From the NCBI GenBank assembly GCA_007121025.1, contig SKMO01000131.1, positions 1-51,394 on the forward strand: a stretch of DNA of 51,394 bases, written 5' to 3'. The notes under the pieces are model-generated. The model was not told where the DNA came from, searched no databases, and saw only the letters and a program-made list of their open reading frames with translations. Shown here piece after piece: positions 32,411 through 41,855 of the stretch. The translations under genes and the position numbers were made by a program. The first letter of the stretch is position 1; every line of letters starts with the position of its first letter. The DNA is from Bacillota bacterium (GTDB lineage Bacteria; Bacillota; TC1; UBA5767).

Positions 32411-33378
32411 TTTGGGCTCCTTTCCTGCGTCCGGTCTGCCGATCCTCTCCCTGGCTCCAACGTATCCAGCACATCTTGGAAGTAGGCCGGCAATGGGCTC
32501 TGAAACCGCATGATCTGACCGGTCCTTGGGTGTTCAAAACCCAGCGCACCTGCATGAAGCATCTGCCCGGACACCCCAAACGGGTTCTTCCGGTTGGTGT
32601 ATTTCTCATCCCCGACCAGGGGATGATCAAGCAGTTTCATGTGTACCCGAATCTGATGGGTGCGTCCTGTTTCCAGTCTGAGCTCCACCAGGGAGTAACC
32701 GGGAAACCGTTCCAGGACCCTGTACCGGGTCAAGGCGTCCTTTCCATGCTGCCCGTTGACTGCCATCCGTTTGCGGTCCCGGGGATCACGGCCAATGGGC
32801 GCCTCGACCTCTCCGGCCGCTTCTTGAATCTGTCCATGGACCAGCGCCAGATAGACCCGCTCAATGGTATGCTCTTTAAACTGACGGGCCAGTTCACTGT
32901 GAGCCCGGTCGTTTTTGGCCACCACCAGGAGCCCGGACGTGTCTTTGTCAATCCGGTGGACAATTCCCGGCCGCAGGACCCCGTTGATCCCGGACAGATC
33001 CCGGCAGTGGGCCAGCAGCCCGTTGACCAGAGTCCCCTCCAGATTCCCGGGCGCCGGATGGACCACCAAACCCTTCTGCTTATCGACAACCACCAAATCC
33101 TCGTCTTCGTACAGGATTGACAGATCCATGGGCTGCGGACGGATTTGCACCGGCTGTGGGGCGGGCACTTCAAGCACCACCTGGTCTCCCGGCTGAAGCC
33201 TGTGGTTTTTCTTCACGGTTTCCCCGTTGACCGTAACCCGGCCTTCGCCAATCAGGCCGGCCAGGTATTCTCTGGAGAATTCTTCCGTTGCATCCGCCAG
33301 AAAGCGGTCCACCCGCGACTTGTCTTCCTGTTCTTCAACGGTCCACTCCATGCGTTCCGCCATTTCCATTGCTTCCAT
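32407..33378 (-). CDS. rluD: 23S rRNA pseudouridine synthase, RluD type
   Basis: RluA-family pseudouridine synthase. An N-terminal S4 domain (RVDRFLADATEEFSREYLAGLI, about 19-40; VTVNGETVKKNHRLQPGD) is followed by the catalytic motif GIVHRIDKDTSGLLVVAKN with the active Asp (about 140-158), and later GRTHQIRVHMK. The start overlaps lspA by 44 nt. Several in-frame ATGs lie in the first ten codons (33378, 33366, 33351) and I cannot decide among them; GGGAAG upstream of the first favours it. In Firmicutes lspA-rluD is a standard pair ahead of pyr genes. Confidence 0.93.
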   Translation of the reverse strand: MEAMEMAERMEWTVEEQEDKSRVDRFLADATEEFSREYLAGLIGEGRVTVNGETVKKNHRLQPGDQVVLEVPAPQPVQIRPQPMDLSILYEDEDLVVVDKQKGLVVHPAPGNLEGTLVNGLLAHCRDLSGINGVLRPGIVHRIDKDTSGLLVVAKNDRAHSELARQFKEHTIERVYLALVHGQIQEAAGEVEAPIGRDPRDRKRMAVNGQHGKDALTRYRVLERFPGYSLVELRLETGRTHQIRVHMKLLDHPLVGDEKYTNRKNPFGVSGQMLHAGALGFEHPRTGQIMRFQSPLPAYFQDVLDTLEPGRGSADRTQERSPK

Positions 33379-33817
33379 TTTCGTCTTCCCTTTCCAGCCA
33401 GATCACACGGACAGCCAAAAGCACCATGCCTGCCACGATGGCCATATCGGCCACATTGAAGATTGGCCACACCCTGAAGTCCAGAAAGTCCCGGACATAT
33501 CCGTAAGTCAGTCGGTCGTACAGATTTCCCAACGCCCCGCTGATGGCCACCACGGCACCCAAGTAGGCCAGCCGGTCCATTCTGAACCGCCAGGCAAATC
33601 CCACCAGAAGGCCCAGCGCCAACAGGCTGAATCCAATCAGAAAGAGCGTCTGTCCCTGCAGAATGCTAAACGCCGCACCCTCGTTTCGGGCGTACGTAAT
33701 ATGAAATATGTTTTCCATCACCGGCACCGATTCGCCCAGAACCAGAGAGCGGTCCACCCAATACTTGGTCAGAACGTCTGCCGCCAGGATGGTCAGGCCT
33801 GCCAAAATAGTTTTCAA
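33335..33817 (-). CDS. lspA: Lipoprotein signal peptidase
   Basis: Membrane aspartyl protease cutting prolipoprotein signal peptides. 160 aa with four hydrophobic segments. The catalytic aspartates are in GALGNLYDRL (about 114) and FNVADMAI (about 133), and NEGAAFSIL (about 45-53) is conserved. The start is TTG at 33817 with GGAGG 7 nt upstream. It is the promoter-proximal gene of the operon through pyrE. The polar C-terminal tail (EREDENGSNGNGG) overlaps rluD. Confidence 0.93.
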   Translation of the reverse strand: MKTILAGLTILAADVLTKYWVDRSLVLGESVPVMENIFHITYARNEGAAFSILQGQTLFLIGFSLLALGLLVGFAWRFRMDRLAYLGAVVAISGALGNLYDRLTYGYVRDFLDFRVWPIFNVADMAIVAGMVLLAVRVIWLEREDENGSNGNGGTHGVDR

Positions 33818-33858: not shown

Positions 33859-33923
33859 CAGGAACCTTCCACAAAACACGATTGACTCGGCCTTTGTCAA
33901 ACTTTCATGCAAACCTTGAATCG

Positions 33924-33957
33924 AAAACACAGCTCTGGCAAGCCAGAGCTGTGTTTT
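33924..33957. terminator. 34 bp near-perfect palindrome, bidirectional terminator
   Basis: Two 16 bp arms (AAAACACAGCTCTGGC and its complement) around 2 bases. The arms end in A and T runs, giving a terminator after the cytochrome b gene on the minus strand; it also isolates the lspA operon from upstream transcription. Confidence 0.85.
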
Positions 33958-33972
33958 CGATATTGGATTAAA

Positions 33973-34353
33973 TCAGATTACGGGACCGGGCATCAGGTAA
34001 TGATAAAAAAACGAAACCACCACCATCAGGGCCATGAACTTATGGATCTTAAACACTGTCCGGTTTTTGGACATTGCATACGTTCCCCCGAACACGCCGG
34101 TAATGATCAGCACGCCCCAGAGCAGGGTCCCTGTGGTGTTCAGCCTCAGGATGCCCCCAAGGGCCAGATAGCCGTGCGTTCCCCCGACGATCAACACCAG
34201 GGCTCCCAGGGGTCTGTGAATGGTTCTAAAGGCCTTCAGGGCCTTCCTGAACCCATTCTTCTTCATTTGCGATTTGCCCAGCTTTTTCATCAGATAAGGC
34301 ATCAGCATGACCGCGATAAAGGCAACATTAAACCAGGCTAAAACTACATACAT
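33973..34353 (-). CDS. Four-helix membrane protein, predicted two-haem cytochrome b
   Basis: 126 aa with four hydrophobic segments (about 2-20, 49-66, 76-93, 105-121). Helix 2 holds H46 and H60 and helix 4 holds H104 and H118. Both pairs are 14 apart, the spacing with which ferric-reductase and NADPH-oxidase type cytochromes bind two stacked haems between two helices. This is my inference; no other part of a reductase (FAD/NAD domain) is present. It follows the cytochrome b5-like lipoprotein gene by 11 nt, so the two are probably one operon. A four-helix cytochrome of this size would be a minimal transmembrane electron wire. Confidence 0.7.
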   Translation of the reverse strand: MYVVLAWFNVAFIAVMLMPYLMKKLGKSQMKKNGFRKALKAFRTIHRPLGALVLIVGGTHGYLALGGILRLNTTGTLLWGVLIITGVFGGTYAMSKNRTVFKIHKFMALMVVVSFFYHYLMPGPVI

Positions 34354-34364
34354 GTCAACACTCC

Positions 34365-34709
34365 TTAATCCACAATCCGGCCGATTTCAGGAACCCGGCT
34401 CAGATTCCCAACCCCATGGGGTGAATCGTTTTGAATGGCTTCAGTCAGATCCTGCCCGGCCTGAAATCCATTGTGATTTCCGCCCGGCCAGGAACGGGAG
34501 TTGCTCATGTCATAGATGATGCCATCAACCGCCACGTAGGCAGGCCGTCCTTCCAGCCCGTCAAACGCAGCCAGTTCTTCCAGTGTCAGTTCCACCGGTT
34601 CTGCAGGCCCTTCACCATTGTCATCCACGACGGCTGCGTTTCCGCAACCGGCAGCCAGCATCAGCATCAGAACCAGCACGATCCCCAGGCAGGTCAGTTT
34701 CGTTTTCAT
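34365..34709 (-). CDS. Cytochrome b5-like haem-binding lipoprotein
   Basis: 114 aa. A lipoprotein signal ends LMLAAGC (C22), so the mature protein should be anchored on the outer face of the membrane. After a short acidic linker comes a b5-type domain: LTLEELAAFDGLEGRPAYVAVDGIIYDMSNS (about 41-71), then GGNHNGFQAGQDLTEAI (H79) and NDSPHG (H98). The two histidines are at the positions used as haem ligands in bacterial single-domain b5 proteins of this subtype, which lack the classical HPGG. GGGAGAA lies upstream of the ATG. Probable electron partner of the adjacent membrane cytochrome. Confidence 0.82.
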   Translation of the reverse strand: MKTKLTCLGIVLVLMLMLAAGCGNAAVVDDNGEGPAEPVELTLEELAAFDGLEGRPAYVAVDGIIYDMSNSRSWPGGNHNGFQAGQDLTEAIQNDSPHGVGNLSRVPEIGRIVD

Positions 34710-34759: not shown

Positions 34760-34788
34760 ATTGTAATGGATGCATATTGCCTTGTCCA
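34760..34788 (-). promoter_or_regulatory. Sigma-A promoter for the cytochrome b5/b pair
   Basis: TGGACA (-35, 34783-34788), 17 bp, TACAAT (-10, 34760-34765), each 5 of 6 to consensus. Leader about 45 nt. Confidence 0.7.
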
Positions 34789-36733: not shown

Positions 36734-39700
36734 TTAACGAACGATGGTGATTTCCTGATCTGATTCCTTCCAGTGCACCGCTGCACCGAGCATTTCTCCC
36801 ACAAAGCGCAGAGGAACGAACGTCCGTCCTTCCCGGATCATCACAGGACTGTCGAGGGCAACCAGCCTGCCGTTCACGGTCCCATAAGGGGATCCGACCG
36901 TCAGTTGAATCCGATCATCCTGTCTGCGGATGATCACCTGCCGGGTCTGCTGGTGCCAGGTCACCTCGGCTCCCATCCATTCACTGATCCGTCTGACCGG
37001 CACCATCGTCCTTCCGGTCTGCCGGTTGAGGAAGGGGCTTGTATCCATCTGTGTCCGCTCGTTGTTCACTGTGACGTCCAGACTGCCAATATGCATCCGG
37101 ATCCACACCTCGGGGTCTGGTTCATCAGCCGTGTCCTGTCCAAACACGGCTGTGATCTGCCGGTCCTGGTCCATGGTGACGGTGATGGACACCGCTTCGG
37201 TCTCGTCCAGGTCTCCACGCCAACCCAGAAATGTCCAGCCTTCTGCCGCACTGGCCCGAAGTTCCACCACCTGTCCGTCTCTCATCTGATGGGCTCCCGG
37301 TTCCGGGGTCACACTTCCGTCTCCGTCCACCCGGACAGTCAGCGTTCGTTGGACGGGGTCCGGTGCCATGCCTCCGGTTGACCCGGATCGAACCGGGAGA
37401 AAGGCTGCAGTGAGATGAGCATCCGCTCCCGGCATGGTGAGAAGGGTCTCCGCCTGATCGGAAAGACTTCCGGTTTGCGAAGAAACTGTCCATTTCCCAA
37501 ACCGGTAACCGGGGGCTGCTGTGGCGCGGATGGTCACCTGTTCCCCTTCCGGATAGTACCCTGCCCCTTCCAGGGTTCCTCCCTGAACGGGATCAGCTGC
37601 CATGGACAATCTGTGCACGTACTGCTGTGGCTCGTTGTCCAGGATCACACCCTCACTGGCAAGATAAGCCCCGTCAATCCGATCGGCACCTGTTACGGTC
37701 ACCGGAGCTTCAAAGACAGCGGTCTCCACACCCCCCTCGATGATGATGTTCAGATCATCACCGCTCCGCAGGACTGTGAGGGTTCTGACCGTCCCCCGGA
37801 TGACGATCGTCTTCCCATTTTGGATCATGTCAATCAGCAGATCGTTGCCGTCTGCCCGTTCATCCCAGGTGTTCCCTGCAATGTCATGTATGATGACTGT
37901 CCCGCCTACCGCGACATCATTGACGACCGTGGCGTTGGCCGCCTCCACAATCAGATTGCCTGAGATGGCCGGATTGGCGCTGCCGTCAAAACCCGCAAGC
38001 CCGGCTTCTGCCGTTTCCATCCAGACGTTTCCCGTCAGGGTGTGTGTCCCCAGATCGACGTTGATCAGGCGCTTTGCATCGATGTCTGCGGTGATGCTGT
38101 CCGCAAAACGGATCGTCCGGACAAACGGATCTGCAACGGCCGCAGCCAGTTCACCGGCTGTCCCGACGGTTGCCAATCCTGCCGGTTCCGTCTGAAACTC
38201 ATAGGGGCCCATGTCCATGAATTCACCGACCAGTCTCGGGTGACCGTCCAGGTCCGTGACCACTCCATGGGCAATTCCTCCCGCCTCATAAGGGCTGTTG
38301 ATTCCGGCACCGATGGCGGGAGAATCCCCGGTCAGGCGGTAATCGCCGGCCACACTGCCCGCTGTGGAAAAGGACGTCCGACCGTCAACAAACTGCGGAT
38401 CCAGGTCCAGATTGCCACCACTGTCCGCCCCGAAGTCTTCGTTCCAACCGTTGCTGCCACCGGACCCCTTGATGATGCTGTTGCGGAAAACCGGTACTGC
38501 ATTGTCGTTGTAGATTTCGTTGGTTCCGGGATTCACGGCGGCCATGTGGTGCCAGATGATGCTGTTGATCAGCACCGGATGGCTGTTGTTTCTGTTAAAG
38601 AGTCCTCCCCCGTAGGCCCAGGCGTAATTGTTGCTGAAGGTGACATTGACCAGCGTGGGGCTGCTGCTGCTGTTGTACAGTCCGCCGCCCCTCTGTCCTG
38701 TGGCATTGCCGCTGAACAGCACATTGATCAGTGTGGGATGGCTGTTGGAGAAGTTGCACATGCCTCCTCCCTCGGCTCTGGAATAGTTGCCGCGGAAGGT
38801 GACACCGATCAGCAGAGGATCGCTGTTCGAATTGTTCATTCCACCCCCGTAGCCGGGCAACTGAGAGGCAAAGTGACCGTTTGCCGTGAAGTTCACCTGG
38901 CGCAGAGTGGGGTGACTGTAGGAATTATGCATGCCACCTCCAAATTCATCCCCGCGGTTGTGTTCGATGTCCACCCGGGTCAGGACCGGATGGCTGTATT
39001 CATTGCGCATTCCTGTTCCATGGTTCCAGGAGATGATCACATCTTCCAGGACCGGGTGGCTTTCACGGTTGTACATCCCCCCGCCAACCGAACCGGTCAG
39101 GACCAGGTGTCTGAGCGTCGGGGAACTGTCGGTCAGGCAGATGGCTCCCCCGAAACGCTGTTCGAGAGGATCCTCAGATGCACCGTCCGCCTTTCCGGCT
39201 GTCACTGTCAGCCCGTCCAGGATGGTCTGTCCGCCCACATCGATTCCGGTGACCACCGTATAGGCGTTGTCTCCGGCAATGCCATCGGGATTGGTCACCG
39301 CGCCGTCCGGTCCGGTTTCATCGTTTCCGTCCAGGTCTCCGCTCAGGACGGTGGCATTTGCCCTCCAGTCCCGGGCATGTCTGGAGACTTCCGAACCGTC
39401 AAACCCCCCGTAGACCGCCACACCATCGGTGAGCAGAAACGTGGCTGTCCGCGGGTCTTCCGGATCAAGGCGGTGGGTCGGAAGGTAAACCCCTGCGGCC
39501 ACCCAGATCTCCATCCCCGCCCTGGCATCGTTTAATGCATCCTGCACGTCTGTGTAGGCATCGGTCCAGGAGGTTCCGTCCTCAAGTCCGGTGGCATTGG
39601 CTTTCACAAACAAAACCGCCGGTCTGTAATCACCCTCAATGCTGACAGCCCCTCCTTTGACGATGGTCACCTCCCGATCCGGCGGCGCATTCCAACCGTC

Positions 39701-41692
39701 CAGGCTGTTGAATTCAACCACCGTGACGCCCGGATCCAGTGCAAGGGTCGTCCCGCTTTCATACCAGACTGCGGCTCCGACCGGTCGCCAGCGGGCACCT
39801 TCCGCACGGACTGACTCCGGCAGGATCGTCACGGTCAGTGTTCCAGTGTCCACCCCGTCATCCATCAGCTCATAGGCGCCCATGTCCACGGCACTGCCGA
39901 TGATCCGGCTGTTTCCATCCAGATCAACCGCCACTGATGAAGCTGCACCCCCCGGTGCAAACGGGGTGTCCGTTCCGGCATCCACCGCCGGCGATCCCGG
40001 CTGGAGCCGGTAGTTGCCTGCCGTAGTGGGAGCCTGGTCAGCGCCGACTGGATCCTCAAACAGCGGATCTGTATCCAGATTGTTCCCACCGTCGATTCCC
40101 AGTACACCGGCCCAGTCCGTTCCGCTGGCCCCGGATCCCTGAATAAGGCTGTAAGCGATATCCGGCTTCCCGTCGGCATGCAGATTATGGATCTGGTCAC
40201 TTCCGTCCGAAACATTTCCCCAAAGAACACAGTTGATCAGTGTGGGCCGGGTTGCAGTGCCTGTGTTTGCATTGTATATTGCCCCGCCCTGGTTCATGGT
40301 GAATATCGTCCCTCTGGTCCGGTTCCCACTCAGGGTGGTGTTGATCAGGCTCAGATGATCCAGATTATTGTATATGGCGCCTCCCATGCCTTCATTGCTC
40401 TGGGTGATTTCGAACGCCTCATTGCCATGAAACAGGCCGTTGACCATCGTCAGTGAATCGTCGTCTGTCCCTTCAACAGACAGGCCGCCCCCCTGCCGGG
40501 CACTGTTCCCCCGGAACACCGTATTGACCAGCTCCAGATCTGCACTGTCCAATCCAAAACGCACGTTAACCAATAGCCCCCCTCCTCGGGATGCAGAGGT
40601 TCCGTCTGCCGTATTGTTCCTGAACTCCACACCCTGCATGGTGGCCGATCCATCCGAGTGATGCATTCCGCCACCATAGGGGGCAACATTGCCGTCAAAC
40701 ACCACCCGATGGAGCTCAATCGGGGTCTCATTGGTTCGGCTGGACAGCCCGCCCCCATACTGCTCTTCTGCCTCATTGTCGGTAAACGTAACATCCGTCA
40801 GCCGGATCCGGTCTCCGGATGTCTGAGCCAATCTGGCGCCCCCGCCCGAGACCGTGGCCTGATTGCCTTCAAAACGGACCCGTTCCAGGATCACGTCTCT
40901 GGTATCCCCGGAGGTTTTATCGTAGTACAGACCCCCTCCAGTGCCTGCGGCATTATTGAAGAATTCCACATCTGTGAGGACCACATTCATCCTGTGGTAT
41001 CTGACATACAGACCGCCACCATGGGATCGGGCTCTGTTGCCAACAAACCGGGTGTTTCGGATCTCCAGAGCATTGCCCGTATGCGGATCTGATCCTCCTA
41101 TCACATAGAGGCCTCCTCCGTGGTTATCCCATGAATCCCCGTTCCGGACATCCGCGTCACCCCCGGTGATGATCAGACCGTCCAGCTGGTACCACACCTG
41201 TCCAGAGCCACTGGCTGTCACCACGTGGTAGGCATTGTCCCCGTATATGTGGTTGCTGGCTGTGACGACGCCATCGGCGTCGGTTTGATCGTTGCGGTCC
41301 AGGTCTGCGCTGAGAACCGTCGGATTTGCCTTCCAGTCTCGGCCGTTCCTGTCGGTTTCATTGCCCTGAAAACCTCCATAGATGGCCACGCCACTGACCA
41401 ATTGAAAGGTGGCACTCCGGTCCGGGCTTTCTCCCTCTCCGGGCTCCGGTGCCGGATAGTACACGCCTCGGGCCACCCAGATTTCATCTCCGGACTGGGC
41501 TGCTTCCAGGGCGTCCTGCAGATCAGTGTATGCATCTTCCCAGGACGTTCCGTCGTCTGCTCCTGCTGCCGCACTCCGGACGTAAAGCACGCGGGCTCCC
41601 TGCGCCAGAGATTGCTGCAGACCCGTCACAGCGGTAAACAGCAGCATGAAGGCCACAATGACGGCTCCGATTTTTCGTTTAGACCGGTTCAT
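36734..41692 (-). CDS. Giant secreted beta-helix repeat protein with C-terminal copper amine oxidase-like domain
   Basis: 1652 aa from the ATG at 41692. A signal peptide (about 1-31) is followed by a first parallel beta-helix module (about 35-625) opening VLYVRSAAAGADDGTSWEDAYTDLQDAL. A second, related module opens VLFVKANATGLEDGTSWTDAYTDVQDAL (about 705-1180). Each runs through many NxxxxGGG(M/L)YN turns and ends near MG(A/P)YE, so the gene carries an internal duplication. A third repeat-poor beta region (about 1190-1380) follows, then two bacterial repeat modules (GYRFGKWTV, GWTFLGWRGD) and a copper amine oxidase N-terminal-like domain (about 1545-1652: VNNERTQMDTSPF, RTMVPVRRISEWMGAEVTW, RTFVPLRFVGEMLGAAVHW). 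The last domain is common at the ends of clostridial surface proteins. No catalytic residues assigned; probable adhesin or polysaccharide-binding protein. Confidence 0.85.
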   Translation of the reverse strand: MNRSKRKIGAVIVAFMLLFTAVTGLQQSLAQGARVLYVRSAAAGADDGTSWEDAYTDLQDALEAAQSGDEIWVARGVYYPAPEPGEGESPDRSATFQLVSGVAIYGGFQGNETDRNGRDWKANPTVLSADLDRNDQTDADGVVTASNHIYGDNAYHVVTASGSGQVWYQLDGLIITGGDADVRNGDSWDNHGGGLYVIGGSDPHTGNALEIRNTRFVGNRARSHGGGLYVRYHRMNVVLTDVEFFNNAAGTGGGLYYDKTSGDTRDVILERVRFEGNQATVSGGGARLAQTSGDRIRLTDVTFTDNEAEEQYGGGLSSRTNETPIELHRVVFDGNVAPYGGGMHHSDGSATMQGVEFRNNTADGTSASRGGGLLVNVRFGLDSADLELVNTVFRGNSARQGGGLSVEGTDDDSLTMVNGLFHGNEAFEITQSNEGMGGAIYNNLDHLSLINTTLSGNRTRGTIFTMNQGGAIYNANTGTATRPTLINCVLWGNVSDGSDQIHNLHADGKPDIAYSLIQGSGASGTDWAGVLGIDGGNNLDTDPLFEDPVGADQAPTTAGNYRLQPGSPAVDAGTDTPFAPGGAASSVAVDLDGNSRIIGSAVDMGAYELMDDGVDTGTLTVTILPESVRAEGARWRPVGAAVWYESGTTLALDPGVTVVEFNSLDGWNAPPDREVTIVKGGAVSIEGDYRPAVLFVKANATGLEDGTSWTDAYTDVQDALNDARAGMEIWVAAGVYLPTHRLDPEDPRTATFLLTDGVAVYGGFDGSEVSRHARDWRANATVLSGDLDGNDETGPDGAVTNPDGIAGDNAYTVVTGIDVGGQTILDGLTVTAGKADGASEDPLEQRFGGAICLTDSSPTLRHLVLTGSVGGGMYNRESHPVLEDVIISWNHGTGMRNEYSHPVLTRVDIEHNRGDEFGGGMHNSYSHPTLRQVNFTANGHFASQLPGYGGGMNNSNSDPLLIGVTFRGNYSRAEGGGMCNFSNSHPTLINVLFSGNATGQRGGGLYNSSSSPTLVNVTFSNNYAWAYGGGLFNRNNSHPVLINSIIWHHMAAVNPGTNEIYNDNAVPVFRNSIIKGSGGSNGWNEDFGADSGGNLDLDPQFVDGRTSFSTAGSVAGDYRLTGDSPAIGAGINSPYEAGGIAHGVVTDLDGHPRLVGEFMDMGPYEFQTEPAGLATVGTAGELAAAVADPFVRTIRFADSITADIDAKRLINVDLGTHTLTGNVWMETAEAGLAGFDGSANPAISGNLIVEAANATVVNDVAVGGTVIIHDIAGNTWDERADGNDLLIDMIQNGKTIVIRGTVRTLTVLRSGDDLNIIIEGGVETAVFEAPVTVTGADRIDGAYLASEGVILDNEPQQYVHRLSMAADPVQGGTLEGAGYYPEGEQVTIRATAAPGYRFGKWTVSSQTGSLSDQAETLLTMPGADAHLTAAFLPVRSGSTGGMAPDPVQRTLTVRVDGDGSVTPEPGAHQMRDGQVVELRASAAEGWTFLGWRGDLDETEAVSITVTMDQDRQITAVFGQDTADEPDPEVWIRMHIGSLDVTVNNERTQMDTSPFLNRQTGRTMVPVRRISEWMGAEVTWHQQTRQVIIRRQDDRIQLTVGSPYGTVNGRLVALDSPVMIREGRTFVPLRFVGEMLGAAVHWKESDQEITIVR

Positions 41693-41855
41693 CAACACAC
41701 ATCCCCTCTCCTGTTTCACAATCAATTTGCGTCTCTTCCAACCACTGGATCACCCCACAAAGACTCAGCATCCGGGCCTGTCTTCGGCCCTTCATATCGG
41801 TAGTCAACCGACGAATCGTGCTGCCAAGTCATACATTTAGCTTACAGGATCTACA

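Follow-up and report, generated by a model that had tools for sequence, protein, structure and literature searches.

The gene pair and its transcription unit

The window, i.e. the whole stretch of DNA analysed here, comprises 51,394 nucleotides of contig SKMO01000131.1 from a Bacillota bacterium (GCA_007121025.1). Two short open reading frames on its minus strand encode a cytochrome b5-domain lipoprotein and a four-helix integral membrane protein (Table 1), where a preliminary description of the sequence had placed such a pair (33973-34709). The lipoprotein gene comes first, the gap between both genes is 11 bases, and both have good ribosome-binding sites (AAGGGAG for the lipoprotein, AAGGAG for the membrane protein). 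Directly 3' of the stop codon of the membrane protein lies a stable inverted repeat (-32.8 kcal/mol, z -8.5 against shuffles, 0 of 200 shuffles as stable), a predicted intrinsic, bidirectional terminator between the pair and lspA. One promoter-like site was found, about 50 bases before the lipoprotein gene; it is weak evidence, because 1.8 sites are expected by chance in the region. The terminator-like repeat, the promoter-like site and the ribosome-binding sites together suggest that the genes probably form a single small transcription unit. Past the terminator, the next gene downstream on the minus strand (33335-33817) resembles lspA, the gene for the lipoprotein signal peptidase, as named by sequence reading. 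Elsewhere on this strand (36734-41725) a secreted protein of 1663 aa is encoded; judged by eye, it has repeats like those of the polymorphic outer-membrane type and, in its C-terminal part, a stretch resembling a copper amine oxidase N-terminal-like domain.

Table 1. Coordinates of the paired genes and of the flanking signals in the window
Feature	Position	Strand	Description
Cytochrome b5-domain lipoprotein gene	34365..34709	minus	ORF, 114 aa
Four-helix integral membrane protein gene	33973..34353	minus	ORF, 126 aa (14.1 kDa)
Inverted repeat	33923..33961	.	~19 bp, perfect, A/T runs on both sides; coordinates by eye
Promoter-like site TGGACA-17-TACAAT, 5' of the b5 gene	34760..34788	minus	10/12 consensus positions

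The membrane protein

Only four histidines are present in the membrane protein, at positions 46, 60, 104 and 118. An AlphaFold2 model based on a 45-row alignment presented a four-helix bundle with a mean pLDDT of 94.8 (helices 2-25, 33-64, 74-95 and 98-120), and the pairs H46-X13-H60 and H104-X13-H118, each 14 positions apart, fall in helices 2 and 4, as had been read from the 126 residues before. The preliminary description would have been abandoned on finding homologues devoid of the four histidines, but conservation is strict: His46, His60 and His104 were kept in 45 of 45 aligned homologues and His118 in 44, the remaining one having a gap. Two H-X13-H motifs occurred in 53 of 54 distinct family members, with a truncated sequence as lone exception, versus one of 99 unrelated multi-helix ORFs of a comparison set and 0.2 % of composition shuffles of the protein; thus the double motif is not due to chance, and the two stacked haem sites predicted earlier gained support. 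The mean number of lysine and arginine residues in the family was 7.3 and 4.0 for loops 1-2 and 3-4, respectively, and 1.1 and 0.3 outside. This positive-inside bias assigns loops 1-2 and 3-4 to the cytosol and therefore His46 and His104 to the inner, His60 and His118 to the outer side. By inference, two candidate haem sites are arranged in series across the membrane, one per face. We regard the protein as very probably a minimal two-haem cytochrome b, with a predicted mass of 7.0 kDa per haem if both sites are filled.

PHROGs and NCBIfam gave no family for the window protein, and it matched no Pfam family above threshold. Ferric_reduct (PF01794) proper was rejected with 13.8 bits versus a curated cut-off of 28, and DUF4405 (PF14358) proper was rejected for lack of any match at its curated cut-off. 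A flavocytochrome of the NOX or ferric reductase type was rejected as well, the FAD and NAD(P)H domains being absent from the 126-aa protein and from the adjacent genes. Among the 45 family members, sub-threshold matches were obtained to Ferric_reduct (30 members), Ni_hydr_CYTB (16) and DUF4405 (13, at E up to 0.1), which are related two-haem cytochrome families; the best E values ranged from 2e-5 to 7e-5, the lowest being that of a Ferric_reduct match. In a profile-profile alignment, MsrQ- and NOX-like sequences were matched with an E value of 9.4e-5 and a probability of 59 %; of the four histidines, three were aligned. The family has the trait of the two-haem superfamily, namely two helices of a bundle that each carry a pair of histidines spaced by about 14 positions. 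The membrane protein is probably a divergent member of this superfamily and would function like the other members. The gene pair is a variation within the two-haem cytochromes, near DUF4405 and MsrQ-like proteins, and no separate category. A Foldseek search of the PDB with the model gave no significant match; the top matches, 8ccr (a designed four-helix protein with two haems, E 0.62) and STEAP1, were below significance and suggestive only, so fold likeness was not used as proof. Sequence searches of solved structures, even with the 45-row profile, returned no match to the membrane protein.

The b5 lipoprotein

The partner has a signal peptide that ends in the lipobox cysteine (MKTKLTCLGIVLVLMLMLAAGC), with Cys22 as predicted lipidation site, followed by a b5 domain at about residues 40-111 (Pfam PF00173, 28.3 bits versus a cut-off of 23.7). 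Its only two histidines, His79 and His98, were invariant in 33 aligned lipoproteins together with Cys22 and Trp74, and a simple lipobox pattern was found in 32 of 37 sequences. The canonical ligand motif HPGG is absent; the sequence is W-P-G-G-N-H instead, in which His79 sits in GNH, five residues past the Trp of WPGG, and is the candidate first ligand, as in the archaeal proteins 6NZX (Hadesarchaea) and 6VZ6 (Methanococcoides burtonii). Both histidines align with histidines of these proteins, and the fold is shared: an AlphaFold model superposed on 6NZX with a TM score of 0.90 (rmsd 1.4) and on 6VZ6 with 0.88 (target-normalised), and the PDB fold matches were mostly b5 structures. Plant MAPR-like proteins were among the weaker matches by structure and sequence. 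6NZX is included among the haem-containing b-type cytochrome structures (PMC7096707). In contrast to both archaeal domains, the window protein is a signal-peptide lipoprotein and is paired with a predicted di-haem membrane protein. It is very probably an outward-facing lipoprotein with two conserved candidate haem ligands, much as first described.

Exported proteins with tandem b5 domains, two, three or up to six each, were observed in other loci (L059:5911-6681, L060:195-920, L079:5839-6681, L096:577-2175) and possibly represent a multi-haem b5 wire.

Conservation of the pair and exchange of partners

In 45 of 80 genome loci seeded with the b5 gene, the membrane gene was adjacent, with the b5 gene first in 41 and the membrane gene first in four; spacings were mostly 0-90 bp. 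Several of the 35 unpaired loci end too near the b5 gene to reveal a partner. The hosts were mostly Clostridia-type bacteria, and one record was labelled Anaerolineaceae. The conserved co-occurrence that the preliminary description had proposed to look for thus exists, and the pair is a real, conserved and recurrent two-gene module. Seeded with the membrane gene, the association was looser: a phylum sample of 399 genomes gave 15 genomes with matches, of which three had an adjacent b5 gene, three had a fusion to FMN_bind and most others had the gene standing alone; genomes with the membrane protein and without a b5 gene include G001, G006, G201, G038 and G383. The mirror-tree correlation of the two proteins (r 0.65, above all 2000 permutations) is consistent with co-evolution and also with a shared species tree.

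Partners are exchanged on both sides. FMN_bind was fused C-terminally to four-helix relatives in three loci (L012:9018-9755, L018:1447-2310, L019:1483-2373), so that the earlier remark on a missing flavin domain is true of the window locus but not general. On the other side, b5 lipoprotein genes of records named Acholeplasmataceae, Izimaplasma and Mollicutes immediately precede genes for PF01794 proteins of the MsrQ-like or full NOX-like kind, which replace the four-helix protein (L087:5288-5959, L098:4335-4985, L125:6401-7723). As read from the sequences, a predicted two-haem membrane cytochrome is always combined with an outside electron carrier, and this exchange is the strongest argument for electron transfer. 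Some further arrangements were noted. Genome G003 holds both an FMN_bind fusion and a b5-paired version, and the fusion in L018 comes after DmsB/DmsC-like genes. In L134 (6001-7020) the b5 lipoprotein is followed by a 202-aa multi-helix protein without Pfam match, possibly a further alternative membrane partner.

Genomic neighbourhood

Most loci, the window included, have no redox gene beside the pair, the neighbours being housekeeping genes. Clustering of the neighbours in 47 loci revealed no general operon partner recurring beyond close relatives; the exceptions were rnf genes in Lacrimispora, where the pair directly follows the rnf operon, and a divergent ferredoxin gene in five loci. In two loci (L112, L129) a gene for an FAD_binding_2 protein ends 2-11 bases upstream of the pair. 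This redox context, i.e. rnf, FAD_binding_2, the FMN_bind fusions and the PF01794 neighbours, supports the electron-transfer reading. Flavinylation-based extracytosolic electron transfer was rejected for the window locus, which has no flavinylated domain; FMN_bind genes are present at other places in the host genome.

In other Bacillota, b5-domain proteins of another group are encoded directly beside genes resembling the small subunit of NiFe-hydrogenases (L029, L034, L039, L041, L046, L135); these b5 proteins are mostly without evident lipoprotein signal, and the Pfam check covers L029 only.

The direction of electron flow has to be weighed here. The lipoprotein might take up electrons from outside, the membrane cytochrome then passing them inward or reporting the redox state. 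Sequence does not fix the direction, the proteins being symmetric in principle, and hydrogenases, next to which the different b5 proteins are encoded, are electron-donating enzymes. However, the hosts are apparently mostly fermentative anaerobes with an excess of reductant, to judge from taxonomy and missing genes, and the functional neighbours of the pair, Rnf and FAD_binding_2 reductase-like proteins, suit an export better. Import or sensing is therefore considered quite improbable.

Haem supply

A ferrochelatase was detected in none of 36 genomes, nearly all of them pair hosts (four of the window's family, of which G001 lacks the b5 gene, and 32 of pair loci), versus 27 of 150 genomes of a phylum sample above cut-off. 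The host genomes are not independent samples, and several are incomplete. AhbD, the enzyme of haem synthesis by the siroheme route, was not found above cut-off in the searched genomes; the candidate matches in Lacrimispora reached about 328 bits versus a cut-off of 500. By these gene contents the hosts apparently cannot make haem themselves, and the haem of the pair is probably scavenged or imported, which had been overlooked in the preliminary description. Without terminal haem synthesis, a haem-based electron carrier needs an external source of haem. Cytochrome c maturation was absent from 33 of the 36 genomes, in line with the earlier claim that the pair could operate without it, and a cytochrome c assembly protein (PF01578) was present in three.

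The missing haem synthesis also has a bearing on whether haem is bound at all. The four histidines could bind another metal or be structural, and the b5 domain could bind another small molecule, as MAPR-type relatives do; the lack of HPGG and the MAPR-like proteins among the weaker matches would fit. We consider this very improbable, since the spacing, helix placement and strict conservation of the histidines match the two-haem superfamily, and the b5 structure nearest to the partner, a haem-containing one, has both histidines in common. The DUF4405 family, related by its sub-threshold matches, includes a haem b binder (PMC10979944).

The main rival to an electron relay is haem handling: the lipoprotein would be a surface haem receptor for acquisition or buffering, the four-helix protein would take, move or hold the haem, and redox chemistry would be secondary. 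A need for outside haem follows from the gene contents above, such a supply would be in keeping with a haem-pocket lipoprotein at the surface, and some relatives have two, three or six tandem b5 domains. Yet no ABC- or ECF-type haem transporter and no haem oxygenase was recognised recurrently beside the pair. The classic design for electron transfer is a four-helix bundle with two bis-histidine sites stacked toward opposite faces, bis-histidine b5 sites are typical of electron transfer, and in relatives the b5 partner is replaced by FMN_bind, an electron carrier rather than a haem binder. Haem acquisition is hence an unlikely main role.

Comparison with known systems

DUF4405 proteins and FezC are among the nearest described systems. 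These membrane cytochromes are likewise small, conserve four histidines, are predicted to have two haem sites and are associated with extracytosolic electron transfer (PMC10979944, PMC11334425); a DUF4405 protein has been purified with haem b, and the group was proposed as flavinylation-associated cytochromes (PMC10979944). Thirteen of the 45 family members match DUF4405, as given above. The published proteins are described as having six helices and are partnered with ApbE and flavinylated proteins, whereas the 126-aa window protein has four, is paired with a b5 lipoprotein and does not itself match DUF4405. A close precedent is the DUF4405-cytochrome b5 fusion of Thermococcus barophilus, proposed for electron transfer, in which a cytochrome b-like membrane domain is joined to a b5 domain; it is archaeal, a single polypeptide, and has 2-3 helices, about half of b561 (PMC5898192). 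The window pair, in contrast, consists of two genes, with four helices, two complete histidine pairs and an exported lipoprotein. A search of the open-access literature revealed no description of a four-helix protein paired with a b5 lipoprotein; the earlier statement that no such system is described holds for exactly this pair, but has to be read beside the Thermococcus fusion.

MsrQ-like and Ferric_reduct (PF01794) proteins, NOX and STEAP likewise hold two bis-histidine haems between two helices with pairs of the H-X13-H type, but are larger, with six helices and often FAD/NAD domains. Cytochrome b561 and the superoxide oxidase CybB (PF01292), to which 16 of 45 members have a sub-threshold match, have four helices and two haems; their ligand placement differs from that of the window protein. 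With 11.1 kDa per haem, CybB is given as the smallest di-haem b-type structure (PMC7096707). The described extracellular electron transfer of Gram-positive bacteria is dominated by covalent flavins, and in systems of the FMN_bind, Rnf and PplA type electrons of the cytosolic side reach a carrier outside the cytosol (PMC8238504), as proposed for the pair; FMN_bind fusions occur in its relatives. In the window pair the outside carrier is a predicted haem protein and not a covalent flavin.

Proposed function

Taken together, the pair is likely an outward transmembrane electron-transfer module that uses b-type haem only, at the candidate sites described. The conservation of six histidines, the gene pairing, the topology bias and the fold were observed; haem occupancy, direction, donor and acceptor are inferred from them. 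In the four-helix protein, each of two haems would have bis-histidine ligation by one residue of helix 2 and one of helix 4: the inner haem, on the cytosolic side, by His46/His104 and the outer haem, towards the outside, by His60/His118. A donor encoded elsewhere would supply electrons to the inner side by a ferredoxin, NADH or quinol route, with Rnf as best-hinted source in Lacrimispora. Having crossed the membrane via both haems, the electrons would pass to the cytochrome b5 haem (His79/His98) of the lipid-anchored partner, which would deliver them to an extracytosolic acceptor, e.g., a soluble oxidant or an FAD-dependent reductase that is exported. In hosts without ferrochelatase, the haem would probably be scavenged.

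Only tentatively, and with some doubt, can this be extended to an undescribed and widespread haem-only outward relay of Gram-positive-type anaerobes, in which the smallest natural di-haem cytochrome b, at about 7 kDa per haem, reduces a b5 lipoprotein, and in which haem scavenged from the environment conditionally switches on an extracellular electron outlet in bacteria that do not make it. If so, a relay without need for ApbE or cytochrome c maturation would be a separate and very small solution, occurring across fermentative Clostridia and their relatives. The presence of the pair in genomes without ferrochelatase raises the testable question whether scavenged haem serves as an optional electron outlet, and the module is easy to test because it consists of two short genes. 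Designed four-helix di-haem proteins would, moreover, have a natural equivalent in the 126-residue protein, which would be of use in the design of membrane electron transfer.
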